From an uncultured Chthonomonas sp. (lineage in GTDB: Bacteria; Armatimonadota; Chthonomonadetes; Chthonomonadales; CAJBBX01), in NCBI GenBank assembly GCA_903885605.1, contig CAISJD010000120.1, forward strand, positions 1-61,202: 61,202 nt of DNA. Reading direction: 5' to 3'. A model generated the notes under the pieces. The model worked only from the letters and a program-made list of their open reading frames with translations. It did no database searches and had not been told where the DNA came from. This document shows, piece after piece, positions 26,609-34,083 of this stretch (position 1 is its first letter; each line of letters opens with the position of its first letter). Position numbers and translations under genes: made by a program.

Positions 26609-27883
26609 CTACAGCAGGACCGCATCCAGGACCGCGCCGGAGCCACCGGTAACCCGAACGCGCGCCAGCGAACCCGCCAACGCCGGGTCGCCCGCAAAGC
26701 GCACGCGGAGGTAGTTGCCGGTATAACCGGCCAGCCGGCCGGATTCCCCGCAGGCGGGTTCGACTGCCACTTCATGCTCCGTGCCCTGTGCGGCAGCCGC
26801 CTGCTCCGCCTGTACGCGCCCTGCCAGTTCCGCCAGGCGATGCGCTCTGTCTTCCTTCACGTCGGAGGGAACCTGATCCGGCATGTCGGCTGCGGGCGTT
26901 CCGGGGCGCACCGAGTAGCGGAAGATGTGCGCACGGTGGAACGCGGCGTCTCGGACCACCCGGCACGTCTCCGCGAAGTCCTCCTCCGTCTCGCCGGGGA
27001 AGCCCACCATGATGTCGGTGGTGAGGCCCATACCTGGCACGACGGCCCTGGCACGTCGGCAGAGGCTCAGGAACGCATCGCTGTCATACGGTCGGCCCAT
27101 GGCCTTCAGCACTCGCGAGCTCCCGCTCTGCAGAGGCAGGTGAAGCTGCGGGCAGAGCCTGCCGCCCAGGGCCATGGCATGGAGCAACGGGTCGGAAACG
27201 TGGACGGGTTCGATGGACGAGAGACGCAGGCGGGGCCCGTTGGGAAGCTCACAGAGGCGCTCGACGAGCCCGAGCAGGTCGCATCTGGCGCCGGCCTCAC
27301 AGGCATCGTAGAGGCCGATGCAGATGCCGGCAAGCACGACCTCGGGACAACCGGAGGTAGCCAGGCCGGTGACCTCATCGACGATGTCGGCGGGTGGGCG
27401 CGAGGTGGGAGCCGGACGCGTGAATGGAATGGAGCAGTAGGTGCAGTTCAGGTTGCAGCCGTCTTGCACCTTCACGACCGCCCGCGTCCGGTGGGTGCTC
27501 GGGCGGCTCGTCGCCGCTGGGCATGCCGCGACGAGCAGGTCGGGTCGAGCGTCCAGGATGTAACGGAGCGCATTGAGCTTGTCGACATTGGGCACGACCA
27601 GGGCCTGCAGGTCCAGGCCATGCCCCAGGCGACGCAGCATCTCCGGATAGCAGCCGGTGAGTACGAGCAGCGCTTCAGGGCTGGATCGCTGTAGTCGTCG
27701 TAGCGCGCTACGGGATTTGCGCTCCGCCTCGGTCGTGACCGAGCAGGAGTTCACCACGCAAACGTCAGCGGCGAACCCCGGCTCGACCACTTCGAAGCCC
27801 TGCTCCTCGAACCCACGCTGGAGCCGCTCAGTCTCGTACTGGTTGACCTTGCAGCCCAGCGTCAGGAAGCTAGCCCTGGGCAC
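26609..27883 (-). CDS. mtaB: tRNA (t6A37) methylthiotransferase MtaB
   Basis: 424-residue radical-SAM methylthiotransferase that converts t6A37 to ms2t6A. UPF0004 domain cysteines are Cys11 (FLTLGCKVNQYETERL), Cys47 and Cys78; the radical-SAM cluster is Cys143, Cys147 and Cys150 (GCNLNCTYCSIPFTRP). The TLGCKVNQYE start separates MtaB from MiaB and RimO. A C-terminal TRAM-like domain follows. The GTG at 27883 overlaps the preceding gene by 14 nt, so translation is coupled to the large low-complexity hydrolase. The frame upstream is only the GC-rich shadow of that gene. Confidence 0.93.
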   Translation of the reverse strand: MPRASFLTLGCKVNQYETERLQRGFEEQGFEVVEPGFAADVCVVNSCSVTTEAERKSRSALRRLQRSSPEALLVLTGCYPEMLRRLGHGLDLQALVVPNVDKLNALRYILDARPDLLVAACPAATSRPSTHRTRAVVKVQDGCNLNCTYCSIPFTRPAPTSRPPADIVDEVTGLATSGCPEVVLAGICIGLYDACEAGARCDLLGLVERLCELPNGPRLRLSSIEPVHVSDPLLHAMALGGRLCPQLHLPLQSGSSRVLKAMGRPYDSDAFLSLCRRARAVVPGMGLTTDIMVGFPGETEEDFAETCRVVRDAAFHRAHIFRYSVRPGTPAADMPDQVPSDVKEDRAHRLAELAGRVQAEQAAAAQGTEHEVAVEPACGESGRLAGYTGNYLRVRFAGDPALAGSLARVRVTGGSGAVLDAVLL

Positions 27884-30800
27884 CCGCGCCCTCTGCGGCA
27901 GGAGCCGCCCCTTCGCCTTCGCCGCCGCTTCGCGGCCGGCGACGGCGGCTTCTGCCGCCGCGGCGGCGGCGGCGGTGCGGTGACGCGTCGGCTCCAGCCT
28001 CGCCCGGCTCCGTAGCGCCGTCGTCCTCACCGAGCGGCTCAAGCGCCTCGGCTTCGGCGTCGGCCTCCGCAAGCTCATCAGCGGGTGGCTCAGCGTCCGA
28101 TTGGGGCATCAGGTCGATTTTCAGGGCCGAGCGGCGGGGCTTCTCCAGGATAGGCGGCGGCCCGGGTAGTTCCGGCGGGGCCGGTAGCGGCGGAGGCGGT
28201 CCAGGCAGGGCGGCGGCTGGCGGACCAAGCAACGCCGGTGGTGGGCCGGGCAACGCAGGAGGTGGGCCGGGAAGGGCCGGAGGTGGGCCGGGTAGCGCGG
28301 GCGGCGGACCGGGCAAATGTCCGGACGCCGGAAACGGTGTGGCCTCCTCAGCCTGCTTGGCGGCAGGCTGCGCACTCTCCTGCACGACCTTCAATCCAAG
28401 CGCCTGGATCGATGCCGGCGACCCCACGGCGAAGACGTGTGAGGACTTGGCGCGCATGGGAACACGGACAATGCCGTTGGCGGCCTGATGGAACGTGCGC
28501 TCCTGCAGGTCGTACAGGCCCATACCGGCCGGCACACTCAGCGAGCGGACGCCTTCCTTCACGGCATGCACCGAAAGCCAACCGTTGCCGCTGGAGACGT
28601 AGTCGTCGGCGTTGGGCGTGGCCAGCGGGGCGCCGGCAAGGTGGCAGAGCCCGCGGACCACCTCGGCCGTCAGCGCCGTCTCGCCATAGAAGACCGACTT
28701 CCAGCCATCGACATCACGCACAACCAGCGACGGAAGGCCGCTACCGGCGTACTCCCCCACCACCGTCATCCCCGGGCCCAGGTCATCGACGTAGAAGCTG
28801 GGATTGAGGCGCTCGCGAACACCAAACTGGCCGTCGCGGACCTCATGGCCGATCGGATGGTCCCGAGCCACGATCTTGGAGCCCATCTCGGAGCCCCAGG
28901 CCTGCCTGCGCAACGTCATGCCGACGACATCGCGGGCGCCGTCCTCCGGGTCACCGTGGGCGTCGCAGATGCCTGCCGCGTAGACCCAGACGACAACCTT
29001 GCCGGCCTTCTGGAGGCGTTCCCGGACGGCCACGCGCTGCGCGGCCGGCATTCGGAACGGCGAGAGAAAGATGAACAGCTTGGCGTCGTCGGGGAACGAC
29101 TTCAGCAGCACGTCGCTCTGAAGGCAGTACGCGACGGAGGCACCTGACCGCGCCAGGGCTTCGCGCTGGCCGTGCAGGATGCGCCGTGCCACATCCTGGT
29201 TTTGGACATGGAACAGGCTCGACTCGTCAATCATCGCCACGACGTCGGGCGCCACGCGCTTTCGGCCGGGCAACTGACCGTTGTACGCCGCCACGTGGCG
29301 GCCGGCGCGCTCCCAGGCATCCTCGGAGTCCAGCCAGCCGTCGCCCCAAAGGTCCATCCAGCCCAGCCCCACCTGATGGGCAAGGCCGATGCCTATCGAG
29401 CGCAGATGCGCGCTCTCGGTAGCGTGACGGCTCTCCATACGCGGGTTGAAATCATCGGCATCGCCGCCGGCGGGGGCCAGGTGCGTCTTCGAGTCATCCT
29501 CCAGGATGGCGAGCTTGCCGTGTGCCGCCGGCGAGTCTACAGGCCATGGGCAGGCCCCGCTGGCGCCGGGGAGGCGGTCCTTGTAGGACGGAGGACCGGC
29601 GACAGCGTCGATGTAGCTCGAACTGAGCAGCTTGCCCAGCGCCAGGTGGCCCGAACCCGAGTGGGTGAACTCGTAGGTATAACCGTAGCAGACGGAGACG
29701 AGCGCCTTGTCGTCGCCGGCCTCCTTGGCCGCCCGGGCGAGGCCGATCAGCCGCGTGGCCGTCATCTCAGACGTGAACTCGTGGAAGTCAACGCGTTGAC
29801 GCTCCCGCCGCGACTCATAGAAGGCCAGGTCGGAGCGCTTCTCCGTCCGCGGGGACGGGATCTCGGCGGTGTAGAACTGCACGGAGCCGCTGAACCAGGC
29901 CGCCCGCAAGGCCACCTCGCTGCCGCCGTACTTGGTGCGGAGCCAACGACGGAAGGCCTCTCGGTTGGCGAAGGAGCGGTCGTAGCCTGCCTCGGCGGGC
30001 TGGAACCACTCGCCTCGCTCCAGGTGGTACCCGATCACGCGGCGGCCGTACTGAGTTCGCTCGATATGCGTTACGAGGGCGCGGACTGCGTGCTCGGCCT
30101 CCATCCAGTAGGTGTCGGAGGCGATCGAAGGCTCTTCCGATACCCCGGCATCGTAGACCGCCATGTCGCCGGGGTACTGCTGCTTCCAGACCGGTGCGGG
30201 CACGAAGACGATGCGGGGCATGATGCGCGCCGTAGGCGACGCCTGAGCCAGCACGGACAGGCGGGCGTCGACCATCTCGTAGACCGAGTCGTCCGGCGGC
30301 ATGGGGCATGTCAGCTCAACCAACGCTGAGACGATGGGCACGCCCGCCTTGGACGCCCGCTCGATCTCGGATGTAACGCGGCGCTCGCGCTTCTCAGAGC
30401 TGACGTCGCCGAAGAAGAGCGCCGGCGCCAGCGGCTTGCCGTCCAGCACTAGCTCGGGGAGACCCTTGCGCACCACCACGCGAGCGCCCGGCGTCACGGG
30501 CTCAGCCGGCTCGGCCTCCTCGGTGGCGGGCTTGCGCCGGCCGCCGCGTGAACGCTTAGCCTTTTCCGGTTGCGGGGTCGGACCGGCGGGTGCCTCGGCG
30601 GCGGCGGGCTCGACCGCTTCCTGGCCTTCGGCCACATCGGCGTTGTTACTGCCACCGCGTCCGCGGCGAGAGCGCCTGGAGCGCTTCGGCGGAGCGACGG
30701 TTTCAGCAGCGGGCCTGCCTGCTTCTGCTGCCGGCGTCTCGGCCTCAGCCTCGGGAGCATCAGCAAGCGGTTCTACGACCGGCGGCTCACCGGCAACAGG

Positions 30801-31340
30801 CGCCTCGGCCTCCTGCTCCGGCGTCTCGGCAACGGAGACCTCGGCCTCCGGCTCCGCGGGCGCCTCGACGGGGTGCTTCGGCTTGCGTGACCTGGACGCC
30901 GTAGAGCGCTTGCGCCTGGGCTCGGCGAGGGCCTCGGCAGGCTCTGCCTGCTCCTCCGCGGAAGAAGCAGCCTCAGCGACCGCGGGTGCCGGCTCTTCAG
31001 CCGGCGCCGCGGGGATTACGTCAGCCGTAGGCTCCGCGGCAGCGGCAGGGACCGGACGCTTGCGGGGACGCGGAGCACGTTTCGGCTTGGCCGGAGCCTC
31101 AGCGGCCTCAGCCTCGGGCACGGTGGGCTCTGTCGGGGCCGGCGCGGGCTCCGGTACCAGCGCGGGCGTAGGCTCGGCCGACGCGGCCGCAGTCGGCTCG
31201 GGGGCGTCGGCTGCGGCCTTGGCCGGCTTCCGACGCGTAGTCGTCGACCGCGCTCGCTTCGGCTTGGCGGGCGTCTCATCAACCTGCGGCGCAGGCATAG
31301 TGCTCTCGGAGGCGCTCACGAGCGTCTCATCGTTTGTCAT
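27870..31340 (-). CDS. Giant glycoside-hydrolase-like protein with basic and proline-rich arms
   Basis: 1156 residues without a signal peptide. Residues 1-283 are low complexity: acidic Pro/Ala/Glu segments separated by basic clusters (KPKRARSTTTRRKPAK, KPKRAPRPRKRP, PKRSRRSRRGRGG, KRSRGGRRKP). About 284-960 resembles GH42-like enzymes: a TIM barrel with candidate glutamates in IGYHLERGEWF and KLAILEDDSKTHL, then a trimerisation-like Rossmann domain (VAMIDESSLFHV onward). About 1007-1070 is LPGPPPA repeats, then an acidic stretch and an RRRRRGGRSRRRRPRSGG tail. The arms look like RNase E-type RNA-binding scaffolds. Whether the core is active, and where it sits, is unknown. Start ATG behind AGGAG. 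Confidence 0.8.
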   Translation of the reverse strand: MTNDETLVSASESTMPAPQVDETPAKPKRARSTTTRRKPAKAAADAPEPTAAASAEPTPALVPEPAPAPTEPTVPEAEAAEAPAKPKRAPRPRKRPVPAAAAEPTADVIPAAPAEEPAPAVAEAASSAEEQAEPAEALAEPRRKRSTASRSRKPKHPVEAPAEPEAEVSVAETPEQEAEAPVAGEPPVVEPLADAPEAEAETPAAEAGRPAAETVAPPKRSRRSRRGRGGSNNADVAEGQEAVEPAAAEAPAGPTPQPEKAKRSRGGRRKPATEEAEPAEPVTPGARVVVRKGLPELVLDGKPLAPALFFGDVSSEKRERRVTSEIERASKAGVPIVSALVELTCPMPPDDSVYEMVDARLSVLAQASPTARIMPRIVFVPAPVWKQQYPGDMAVYDAGVSEEPSIASDTYWMEAEHAVRALVTHIERTQYGRRVIGYHLERGEWFQPAEAGYDRSFANREAFRRWLRTKYGGSEVALRAAWFSGSVQFYTAEIPSPRTEKRSDLAFYESRRERQRVDFHEFTSEMTATRLIGLARAAKEAGDDKALVSVCYGYTYEFTHSGSGHLALGKLLSSSYIDAVAGPPSYKDRLPGASGACPWPVDSPAAHGKLAILEDDSKTHLAPAGGDADDFNPRMESRHATESAHLRSIGIGLAHQVGLGWMDLWGDGWLDSEDAWERAGRHVAAYNGQLPGRKRVAPDVVAMIDESSLFHVQNQDVARRILHGQREALARSGASVAYCLQSDVLLKSFPDDAKLFIFLSPFRMPAAQRVAVRERLQKAGKVVVWVYAAGICDAHGDPEDGARDVVGMTLRRQAWGSEMGSKIVARDHPIGHEVRDGQFGVRERLNPSFYVDDLGPGMTVVGEYAGSGLPSLVVRDVDGWKSVFYGETALTAEVVRGLCHLAGAPLATPNADDYVSSGNGWLSVHAVKEGVRSLSVPAGMGLYDLQERTFHQAANGIVRVPMRAKSSHVFAVGSPASIQALGLKVVQESAQPAAKQAEEATPFPASGHLPGPPPALPGPPPALPGPPPALPGPPPALLGPPAAALPGPPPPLPAPPELPGPPPILEKPRRSALKIDLMPQSDAEPPADELAEADAEAEALEPLGEDDGATEPGEAGADASPHRRRRRGGRSRRRRPRSGGEGEGAAPAAEGAGAQG
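28150..28316 (-). repeat. 21-bp tandem repeats encoding LPGPPPA
   Basis: Within the large hydrolase-like gene, four near-identical 21-bp units (LPGPPPA) run from 28316 to about 28233, followed by degenerate copies (LLGPPAA, LPGPPPP, LPAPPE, LPGPPPI). The period makes the tract prone to length variation. Confidence 0.85.
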
Positions 31341-31371
31341 CTCTATCTCCTGTTGGGGCGCCGTCGCCGTA

Positions 31372-31450: not shown

Positions 31451-32536
31451 CTAGCGCCTGGGCGGCCGCACTACGGTGAGCGAGGCTTGTCCCCGGTTTC
31501 TACTCACGACCCGCATTGGGTCGAAAACGTACTCGCGATCTGCTTCGAAAAACCCCGCCCTGGCCAGCGTGGACTCCACCTTGGGGTCCGGGCCGGTCTC
31601 GCCCTCTTGCTGAGCATAGGCGAGCAGGGCCACCATCATGTCGTTCAGCGGAAATCGCTTACCCACAACGAACTTGCCCTGGTACCGATCGCCTCCAGCA
31701 GGCTCCAGAGGCACCAGGATGTTGGCGCGCTCAATCTTGGCCACCACGCGCACGGGCGTCCTCGGCTCCGTGGGCGTGGGGAAACGGGCCGAGATGGTAA
31801 CCTCGGCCCCCACCTCGGCGATTCCGGGCTCCACACGCACGTTGCTGAAACGCATGAGACCGGAGTCCACGGCGGAGGCGCCCTCGCCTCCAGCCGCCAG
31901 CATAACAGGATCGAGCCAGGCGAGGTACGCCTCAAGCGCCTTGCCGCCCGCGCGATGCTCCTCGCGCTCCAGCCAGTACAACTGCGCCGGCGAGACCAGG
32001 TCCTCGCGGCCCGTGGCCGAGATACGCAGCCACATGGCTCCTGGGGCCAGGTCTGAGCGCCCGCGCTTGCCGGATCCCCCAACGGTATCGATGGCGGACG
32101 TGGCCAGGCCCGCGGCCGCCTGGGCGCCGATCTTGAGCACCGGGTCCGCTGAGGCCGCCGCGGCGGCGGCGCGGATCCCGGCCTTGAGCGGGCCGGATGC
32201 CATGCGGCCGATGCCACCGGTGATCCTGGTCACGCCGGAGCCCACCTTGCGCACGAAGCCGCCACCGGCCGCCTTCTTGATCCTCAGGGCGGACCAGGGC
32301 ACGGCCAGGACATAGGTTCCGTCGGTGTCGGTCTTTGCGTAGTCGATGACCTTGCCGCCCTGGTCATAGACAGCCACGGTCGCGCCGGCAACCGGCTCCT
32401 TGCCGGTCCGGCTGAGCACAACACCGGTCACAAACGCTGTATCCGCGGCCCACGCAGCTTGACGCGCAACGCCTAGCGACAACAGCGTCGCGCCGATGCC
32501 GATTGCGGTGAACCTTGTTCGATAGCCAGAGATCAC
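31451..32536 (-). CDS. Exported protein with carboxypeptidase regulatory-like domain, unknown
   Basis: 361 residues. Signal peptide (about 1-30, ATLLSLGVARQAAWA) then a carboxypeptidase regulatory-like beta-sandwich (FVTGVVLSRTGKEPVAGATVAVYDQGGKV, ending TDTDGTYVLAVP). A glycine-rich helical stretch (about 95-145) and a C-terminal beta domain (VEVGAEVTISARFPTP-like segment) follow, of a kind seen in surface proteins. GTG at 32536 overlaps the vanW stop as GTGA. It is the last gene of the cell-wall operon, so an envelope location is likely. No enzymatic motif seen. Confidence 0.7.
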   Translation of the reverse strand: MISGYRTRFTAIGIGATLLSLGVARQAAWAADTAFVTGVVLSRTGKEPVAGATVAVYDQGGKVIDYAKTDTDGTYVLAVPWSALRIKKAAGGGFVRKVGSGVTRITGGIGRMASGPLKAGIRAAAAAASADPVLKIGAQAAAGLATSAIDTVGGSGKRGRSDLAPGAMWLRISATGREDLVSPAQLYWLEREEHRAGGKALEAYLAWLDPVMLAAGGEGASAVDSGLMRFSNVRVEPGIAEVGAEVTISARFPTPTEPRTPVRVVAKIERANILVPLEPAGGDRYQGKFVVGKRFPLNDMMVALLAYAQQEGETGPDPKVESTLARAGFFEADREYVFDPMRVVSRNRGQASLTVVRPPRR

Positions 32537-34083
32537 TGTTCTACCTCGCTGGAGCCGGCGGCTCCACCGGGCTCGGCGCCTGCCGAGCTCCCGGGGATGC
32601 GGCTCGCTCCGGCCTGCGGCGCCCCGCCCTGCGGCGGGGCCGTCGGTGCGCCAACCGCGATGATCCTTGGGAATGCCGCGTAGTAGTCGCGCGAGATGGT
32701 CTCACGACGGACGGGCTTGCCGGGTTGCTCAACCACGCGCAACGTGGTGACGCGACATCCGGCGTGCCCCTTCTCAACCACCTTGCGGACGCCGGGCGGC
32801 AACGTCCTGTCCGCGAGCGTCTTTGTGGCCTGAGGCCATTTTGATACCCCGGTCTGGACGATGGAGACCCGCTTGCCCGGGCTCGGAGTGCCGAGCAAGC
32901 GTACTTCGACGTGCCCGCCACGGACCTGGGCCATCACTGCCAGCGGCCCTGACGAGCGGTTCCTGAACCGGAAGTCGACAACGCCGTAGGCAACCGTAGC
33001 GTCCAGGCCGGCCGGCACATAGGCGACCGGCGTGCCGTGGTGCGATCGGGACACGATCTCCATATCAGCCAGGAGGGCCGCATTGTAGATGGTGCTCGAT
33101 ACCTGGCAGATGCCGCCGCCGATACCAGGCTTGTAGACGCCGCGAACGATCACCATGGCGGTCCGGAAGCCGCCATCCTCTTCCCTGGGCCCGACCACGT
33201 CGTTATATGCAAAGACGTCGCCGGGTGCGAGGATGTGCCCGTTGATTCTGCGGCAGGCAACCACAAGGTTCTGCGTCCGGTCGGCATTTCGAGCGTAGCG
33301 CGTTCGGTACTGCGCCACGACCTCCCACGGGCCGCCACCCGCAGACTGGCTCACGCGGGGATCAACCACCCGGGAGACCACGCGAACCGAGGGATCGGGC
33401 AGGTTCGTCTCAGGCGTTCCGGTTGCTGACGGCGTGACCGCCTTCAGCACAGGGCCAAGCGCCAGCGCCGTGGTCTCAGCGTCCAGTTCGAGGCCCGGCT
33501 TCGATGACGTGACGCGGTTGCCGCCGACATCCTCTATCAGGCGGGAGTCGACCGGCAGCCTCTGCAACGGCCCGGCAAACAGCCGGCGCAGTTCGTGGGC
33601 GGTCCTGGCCTTGTCGACCTTCCAAACCCAGGGCACATTGACGGGCTTCTCGCCGGAGACCGCCGTGGCCAGGTACTCAAAAACGGAGACGGCGCTTCCG
33701 ATGCCCATGGCCGCACGGAGCGTGGCTTCGATGTCGAGGGTGTACCCCAGAGCCGCCACCGTGGTACGCCGCGTCCGCCTGGAGGCCGAGCCTGGCGTGG
33801 GCGTGAGCTCGGCAGTCGCAGCCTCGCGGCGATCAGCCCACTCCTGCAGGACGCGACGCGCCTCCGGCTCACTGAGGCCGCCTACCTGGATGCCCGCCAC
33901 ACGGACCGAGGCGTGCAGCCGGTCGCCCTGAGGCATCTTCACGGCCGCGCCCGCGCCCACCAGCGCCGCGACGAGCAGGGCAACGGGAAGCCACACGCGT
34001 GTCACGCGGTTGGCTCTTGCTTCAGATCGGCGACGACGATATGCACGGCGAATGCCGGCCGGCTGACGGCTATACGCACCCAT
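32533..34083 (-). CDS. VanW family protein
   Basis: 516 residues: one N-terminal membrane helix (VWLPVALLVAALVGAGAAV), two extracellular PG_binding_4/YoaR-type domains (about 55-290, containing GLSEPEARRVLQEW), and a C-terminal VanW domain. Key VanW blocks are NLVVACRRINGHILAPGDVFAYN, GGFRTAMVIVRGVYKPGIGGGICQVSSTIYNAAL and VAYGVVDFRFRNRSSGPL. VanW proteins accompany peptidoglycan remodelling or vancomycin-type resistance loci, but the activity is unproven. It lies between alr and the carboxypeptidase-like gene in one leftward operon with overlapping ends. Confidence 0.92.
   Translation of the reverse strand: MGAYSRQPAGIRRAYRRRRSEARANRVTRVWLPVALLVAALVGAGAAVKMPQGDRLHASVRVAGIQVGGLSEPEARRVLQEWADRREAATAELTPTPGSASRRTRRTTVAALGYTLDIEATLRAAMGIGSAVSVFEYLATAVSGEKPVNVPWVWKVDKARTAHELRRLFAGPLQRLPVDSRLIEDVGGNRVTSSKPGLELDAETTALALGPVLKAVTPSATGTPETNLPDPSVRVVSRVVDPRVSQSAGGGPWEVVAQYRTRYARNADRTQNLVVACRRINGHILAPGDVFAYNDVVGPREEDGGFRTAMVIVRGVYKPGIGGGICQVSSTIYNAALLADMEIVSRSHHGTPVAYVPAGLDATVAYGVVDFRFRNRSSGPLAVMAQVRGGHVEVRLLGTPSPGKRVSIVQTGVSKWPQATKTLADRTLPPGVRKVVEKGHAGCRVTTLRVVEQPGKPVRRETISRDYYAAFPRIIAVGAPTAPPQGGAPQAGASRIPGSSAGAEPGGAAGSSEVEQ

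Follow-up and report, generated by a model that had tools for sequence, protein, structure and literature searches.

In other bacteria, degradosomes contain PNPase and Rho along with metabolic enzymes (PMC5472812), and they are assembled by short motifs on the arms of RNase E (PMC11964227, PMC3376730). For example, RNase E from Caulobacter binds PNPase via a C-terminal GWW motif (PMC3376730). The C-terminal scaffold of RNase E (as in E. coli, Caulobacter, or Pseudomonas) combines long disordered arms, basic patches that resemble RNA-binding sites, and short motifs. Here we describe a protein of the Armatimonadota that also has long disordered arms with basic patches and short conserved motifs, but whose core is a glycosidase fold, with no RNase E/G catalytic domain. 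Its nearest parallels among metabolic enzymes are enolase, aconitase, and phosphofructokinase, which are tied to RNA decay in other bacteria (PMC5472812). Those enzymes are clients that dock on RNase E, while the armed protein would carry the arms itself.

The gene lies in the window, by which we mean the whole stretch of DNA that was analyzed (61,202 nucleotides from an uncultured Chthonomonas sp.). It had been predicted from the sequence as an open reading frame of 1156 residues without a signal peptide, and it is present as claimed, on the minus strand, which the prediction did not specify (Table 1). Both arms and the core are in a single frame, and the start region reads CAGGAGATAGAG-ATG. 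The end of the gene overlaps an mtaB-like gene, whose product has Radical_SAM and UPF0004 domains, by exactly 14 bases (GTGCCCAGGGCTAG). The original prediction pointed out this overlap, but the gene neighbors vary: mtaB and pfkB accompany the gene in the window's family, family f3 has fatty-acid genes there, and the Fimbriimonadales-like family f14 has flagellar genes. We dropped the idea of a link to mtaB because the neighborhood changes from family to family. The overlap is lineage-specific. Just upstream, also on the minus strand, are a carboxypeptidase-regulatory-like protein (31451-32536) and a VanW/G5 protein (32533-34083); both have an extracytoplasmic look, and neither is a conserved neighbor.

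Table 1. Features of the armed protein and its surroundings, in positions of the window.
Feature	Position	Strand	Remarks
Armed GH42-like protein, 1156 aa	27870..31340	minus	Stop codon at 27870-27872; reading frame without internal stop
Shine-Dalgarno site, AGGAG	31347..31351	minus	6 nt before ATG, good spacing (from sequence)
N-arm, residues 1-283	30492..31340	minus	Alternation of basic clusters and acidic Pro/Ala segments; charge clustering z 8.6; dN/dS 0.27-0.32
GH42-like core, residues 284-985	28386..30491	minus	AF2 pLDDT 93.1; Foldseek GH42 E 5.8e-25, TM 0.69
E444, candidate acid/base (HLERGEWF)	30009..30011	minus	Aligned to GH42 acid/base Glu; conserved outside f14
E614, candidate nucleophile (KLAILEDDSKTHL)	29499..29501	minus	Conserved outside f14
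C-arm, residues 986-1156	27873..28385	minus	Charge clustering z 7.9; dN/dS 0.14-0.18
LPGPPPA repeats through LPGPPPILEKPRR, residues 1009-1070	28131..28316	minus	Conserved in G001 and G002 only
PPELPGPP 8-mer of C-arm	28155..28178	minus	Shared with N-arm of Rho from the same genome (L186/L194)
RRRRRGGRSRRRRPR	27930..27974	minus	Variant of the RRRRRRGGRGRGRR tail in the window's protein
Downstream mtaB-like gene	26609..27883	minus	GTG start, 14-base overlap; context, outside the system

The core was suspected to be GH42-like, and structure prediction upholds this. When we compared an AF2 model of the core (for which 35 core sequences were aligned) to known structures with Foldseek, ranks 1-29 were all GH42 (E down to 5.8e-25, TM 0.63-0.69). 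The best solved structures were GH42 beta-galactosidases, aligned over the full length at 12-16% identity; for the likes of PDB 4uzs, 8ibr, and 1kwg, TM is about 0.69 and identity is 13-15%. VIA-align placed GH35 barrels slightly above GH42 by Z, with GH42 at Z 23-24 across about 600 residues. By sequence, the Pfam GH42 score of the core (18-19.1 bits) is just below the gathering score of 21, and a search of NCBIfam with the protein matched no family. (A Pfam match to APO_RNA-bind, with E = 0.07, was taken as noise.) The two glutamates that had been picked out as candidates are E444 and E614, and they form a conserved pair. In a profile alignment, E444 (E161 of the core) coincides with the acid/base Glu in the NE motif of GH42, which is at the end of strand 4 and is E160 in BiBga42A; the region of E614 fell outside the HMM alignment to GH42. 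In clan GH-A, an Asn immediately before the acid/base Glu is a hallmark. In the armed proteins this residue is Gly or another amino acid, and it is Asn in just 1 of 56 sequences. Because the Pfam score is below the cut-off and the usual Asn is absent, we describe the protein as GH42-like rather than as a member of GH42.

Of the 201 genomes of Armatimonadota that we searched, 89 have an orthologue, defined as scoring more than 500 bits, by our own count from the table of matches. These belong to eight families (f1, f2, f3, f6, f14, f15, f24, and f40) and to no other family listed, and the remaining genomes have only paralogues, which score under 520 bits; the gap in scores is clear. Within the order, an orthologue is present in 28 of 30 relatives (E < 1e-170), with a frame that almost always exceeds 900 amino acids. 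A few of the orthologues that we fetched are cut by contig ends, but every one that is readable at both ends has both arms, with an N-arm of 120-440 amino acids and a C-arm of 29-357 amino acids. The C-arm is short (29-53 amino acids) in f2 and f6, and in f14 genomes of 1.5 Mb, the gene is retained with shortened arms. In a quick LG+G4 tree, a branch with support of 100 separates all of the armed cores, as one clade, from the secreted paralogues that lack arms. The chimera of arms and core is real, old, and conserved.

Armless homologues, which were named beforehand as evidence against the chimera, do exist, but they are found among the paralogues and not among the orthologues readable at both ends. 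The secreted GH42-like paralogues of Armatimonadota (L058-L066, L131-L139) have a homologous core, with about 30% identity, but instead of arms they have signal peptides or carbohydrate-type N-terminal domains, and their acid/base loop is generally 3 residues longer. No armed orthologue that we read has a start resembling a signal peptide. Of the two locations that the original prediction left open, inside the cell or at its surface, this favors the former. The window's own genome (G000) encodes at least seven paralogues of the secreted type (C36, C207, C79, C87, C143, C96, and C97), which are 28-33% identical to the core.

The N-arm of the window's protein is charged and low in hydrophobicity, with basic clusters such as KPKRARSTTTRRKPAK. 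Its C-arm contains LPGPPPA repeats, an acidic stretch, and an Arg/Gly tail (RRRRRGGRSRRRRPR). The overall charge of the arms is close to neutral or acidic. Relative to shuffles of the same residues, charges are strongly clustered in the window's arms (z = 8.6 and 7.9 for the N- and C-arm), and z exceeds 3 for 72 of 85 N-arms and 65 of 75 C-arms from the orthologues. The sequence of the arms changes fast, while their composition and charge pattern are retained. When we compared the gene to those of two sister species, whose cores are 95% identical to the window's, dN/dS was 0.27 and 0.32 for the N-arm, 0.036 and 0.037 for the core, and 0.14 and 0.18 for the C-arm, and all indels in the arms were in whole codons. 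These in-frame indels and dN/dS values rule out a frame error or a fusion artefact, which was the other outcome that could have overturned the prediction. Given the in-frame indels, the dN/dS values, and the charge clustering, the arms are translated and are under purifying selection, which is weaker than that on the core.

Thus the predicted arms are genuine and are kept in orthologues. The LPGPPPA repeats, which were part of the prediction, are present in the C-arm but are confined to the window's genus, so they are not a defining feature. Tails that resemble RRRRRxGGRxR are found in nearly all C-arms from f1 and f3, and C-arms from f6 have KKRRRRGGKKHRKR. A CGN-codon pattern search of the window's own genome for another Arg/Gly tail gave no convincing second protein. 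In a full-length model of an f14 protein, the arms are disordered (pLDDT under 40-50).

Both glutamates are present in every orthologue outside f14 that covers the site, which argues that catalysis matters there. Within f14, nine proteins lack one or both, and all nine keep the core and both arms. Three have E444N with E614L (L124, L151, and L153), one has E444P with E614D (L152), two have E614L (L155 and L156), and the others have E444I (L123), E444Q (L164), or E444D (L165); proteins with a change from Glu to Asp or Gln need not be fully dead. The tree requires four changes to account for the losses, of which at least three are forced by its starred branches, although the tree method is quick and one row is long. 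Since at least three to four f14 lineages lost one or both of the catalytic Glu yet kept the fold and the arms, the arms outlive catalysis. The plain reading is that the arms and the fold serve a use that is independent of catalysis.

The arms of the f14 proteins also carry short motifs. All 33 of these proteins end with a hydrophobic stretch and FRKR(D/E) or a close variant (FR[KRN][RK] in every case), and their N-arms have repeats such as VSLAFRPR or VPTWRPR. We counted 47 instances of FRxR or WRxR in the N-arms versus 1.7 in shuffles, but FRxR has only three fixed residues and the pattern was picked after looking. To find other proteins with this end, we searched the DNA of 16 f14 genomes for the exact codons of FRKR(D/E)-stop. 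There were 7 matches (0 for the control); those that we translated are the armed protein and, once, the C-terminus of PNPase (...GGSRFRKRD). PNPase was then examined in 28 genomes. The 26 sequences that were readable, from six families, all finish with ARFRP(R/K)R or a similar form. In these sequences (L232-L259), the near-invariant end follows a variable, RG-rich tail. Rho from f14 begins with MTHxFRPRK or a near variant, M..xFR[PSQ][RK], in all of the genomes that we read (L184, L190, L205, and L215-L231), and a short basic tract follows.

We scanned 1.2 Mb (45%) of one f14 genome, G195, with a simple home-made gene caller based on codon usage. Among the called genes (1048 predicted genes with 344,391 residues; some N-arms were clipped), FR[PK]R occurs just five times: at the C-terminus of PNPase, at the C-terminus of the armed protein, at the N-terminus of Rho, and twice inside folded-looking enzymes. 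We saw no docking of the C-terminal motif on the protein's own core in the full-length f14 model, where the arm has pLDDT under 50. The PNPase tail may have a role apart from the armed protein. No RNA protein was matched to the arm motifs of f24 and f6.

In the window's family, the arms have no FRxR motif, and a search of the window's own genome for PNPase gave no match at E ≤ 1e-60. A link to Rho is suggested by another sequence: the C-arm has PPELPGPPPIL, and Rho from the same genome and from both sister species has PPPPPELPGPPAELP. A search of the genome for LPGPPxxLP found the armed gene, Rho, and one 75-amino-acid frame that we judged to be probably not a gene. For the shared PPELPGPP, shuffles gave P = 0.002, and a stricter version of the test gave P = 0.017. 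These values are suggestive only, and the link consists of a single proline-rich 8-mer that is found in three sister species.

In the 11 genomes that we searched for it, RNase E/G is encoded by a separate gene, with frames of 580-714 amino acids. Those that could be read (L140-L149) are RNase G-like and end right after the catalytic part, with no C-terminal scaffold; the exception is from f15 (L150), with an RRRRRRGG tail. The f15 tail ends with GRRRRRRGGQRTGAAA, and it resembles the tail of the armed protein in other families. The original prediction had likened the arms to RNase E scaffolds, and this likeness is now backed by the motifs shared with PNPase and Rho. As in such scaffolds, disordered arms surround a folded core (judging by the f14 model and by the composition of all arms). 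The basic patches, as seen in composition and charge clustering, are putative RNA-binding sites, and the conserved motifs are putative sites for binding partners.

We tentatively propose, at a little under even chances, that the armed protein acts in the cytoplasm within the machinery for RNA decay and transcription termination, as a scaffold or an accessory subunit with a GH42-like glycosidase fold at its base. This fold would be the hub, the polybasic patches on the two disordered arms would hold RNA, and the short motifs would dock on the same partner or partners as PNPase and Rho. The protein would stand in for the arms that RNase E has elsewhere, given that RNase E/G in the genomes examined is mostly without arms. 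The predicted glycosidase site, which is kept in most lineages, would be dispensable, and perhaps acts as a metabolic sensor or as an active enzyme. The window's family would presumably use the protein as f14 does. A more specific version is less probable: in at least two lineages of this phylum, the RNA degradosome would have this glycoside-hydrolase-fold protein as its scaffold in place of RNase E. Its arms would bind the FR[PK]R receptor of PNPase and Rho, either in competition with them or jointly, and its active site would be a sugar sensor or lost.

The main rival is that the protein is an active cytoplasmic glycosidase, with arms that merely solubilize it or bring it to a generic polyanion (the nucleoid, the ribosome, or an anionic polysaccharide), and that it is not specifically connected to RNA decay. 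This is a serious contender, even if we think it is probably wrong. It would fit with the intact catalytic pair in all orthologues outside f14, with the low dN/dS of the core (0.04), and with arms that conserve composition and charge pattern more than sequence; indeed, a polybasic tail might attach to DNA, to ribosomes, or to some other polyanion. But it does not explain why catalytic glutamates were lost repeatedly while the arms were kept, a mere solubility tag would not need near-invariant short motifs at its ends, and the motifs are common to PNPase and Rho. It is also unlikely that the protein is bound to the chromosome or nucleoid by histone-H1-like arms rich in Lys, Arg, Pro, and Ala, as the two other proteins with the motifs, PNPase and Rho, act on RNA. 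N-arm clusters such as KPKRARSTTTRRKPAK do have the look of DNA binders, as do three AT-hook-like KRGRGRPRKP repeats in the N-arm of one f14 protein (L118), but the arms as a whole are near neutral or net acidic. Least probable, and by our reckoning very improbable, is a surface enzyme with a wall-binding tail. The sister paralogues are secreted GH42-like proteins and the window's upstream neighbors look extracytoplasmic, but those neighbors are not conserved, and the armed orthologues lack the signal peptides that the paralogues have.

Whether or not the protein has a role with RNA, a glycosidase fold with selected disordered arms, found in eight families and repeatedly turned into a pseudoenzyme, appears to be undescribed: we found nothing on it in the open-access papers that we searched, nor any mention in that literature of the FRPRR tail of PNPase or of degradosomes from Armatimonadota. 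If the scaffold proposal is correct, then the scaffold for RNA decay has moved from RNase E to an unrelated metabolic fold, and it is the arms and their motifs, rather than the RNase, that define a degradosome. The f14 proteins offer a natural series of catalytic deaths with the arms retained, and FR[PK]R is a concrete short motif that provides a handle on its receptor.

We dropped the idea that arms are a general fashion in these genomes, because several families have an armless Rho and most have an armless RNase E/G. Rho from f24 and f15 (L207, L208, L210, L218, L188, and L226) does have long N-arms that are rich in RG/RD or in proline, unlike Rho from f1, f3, and f6.
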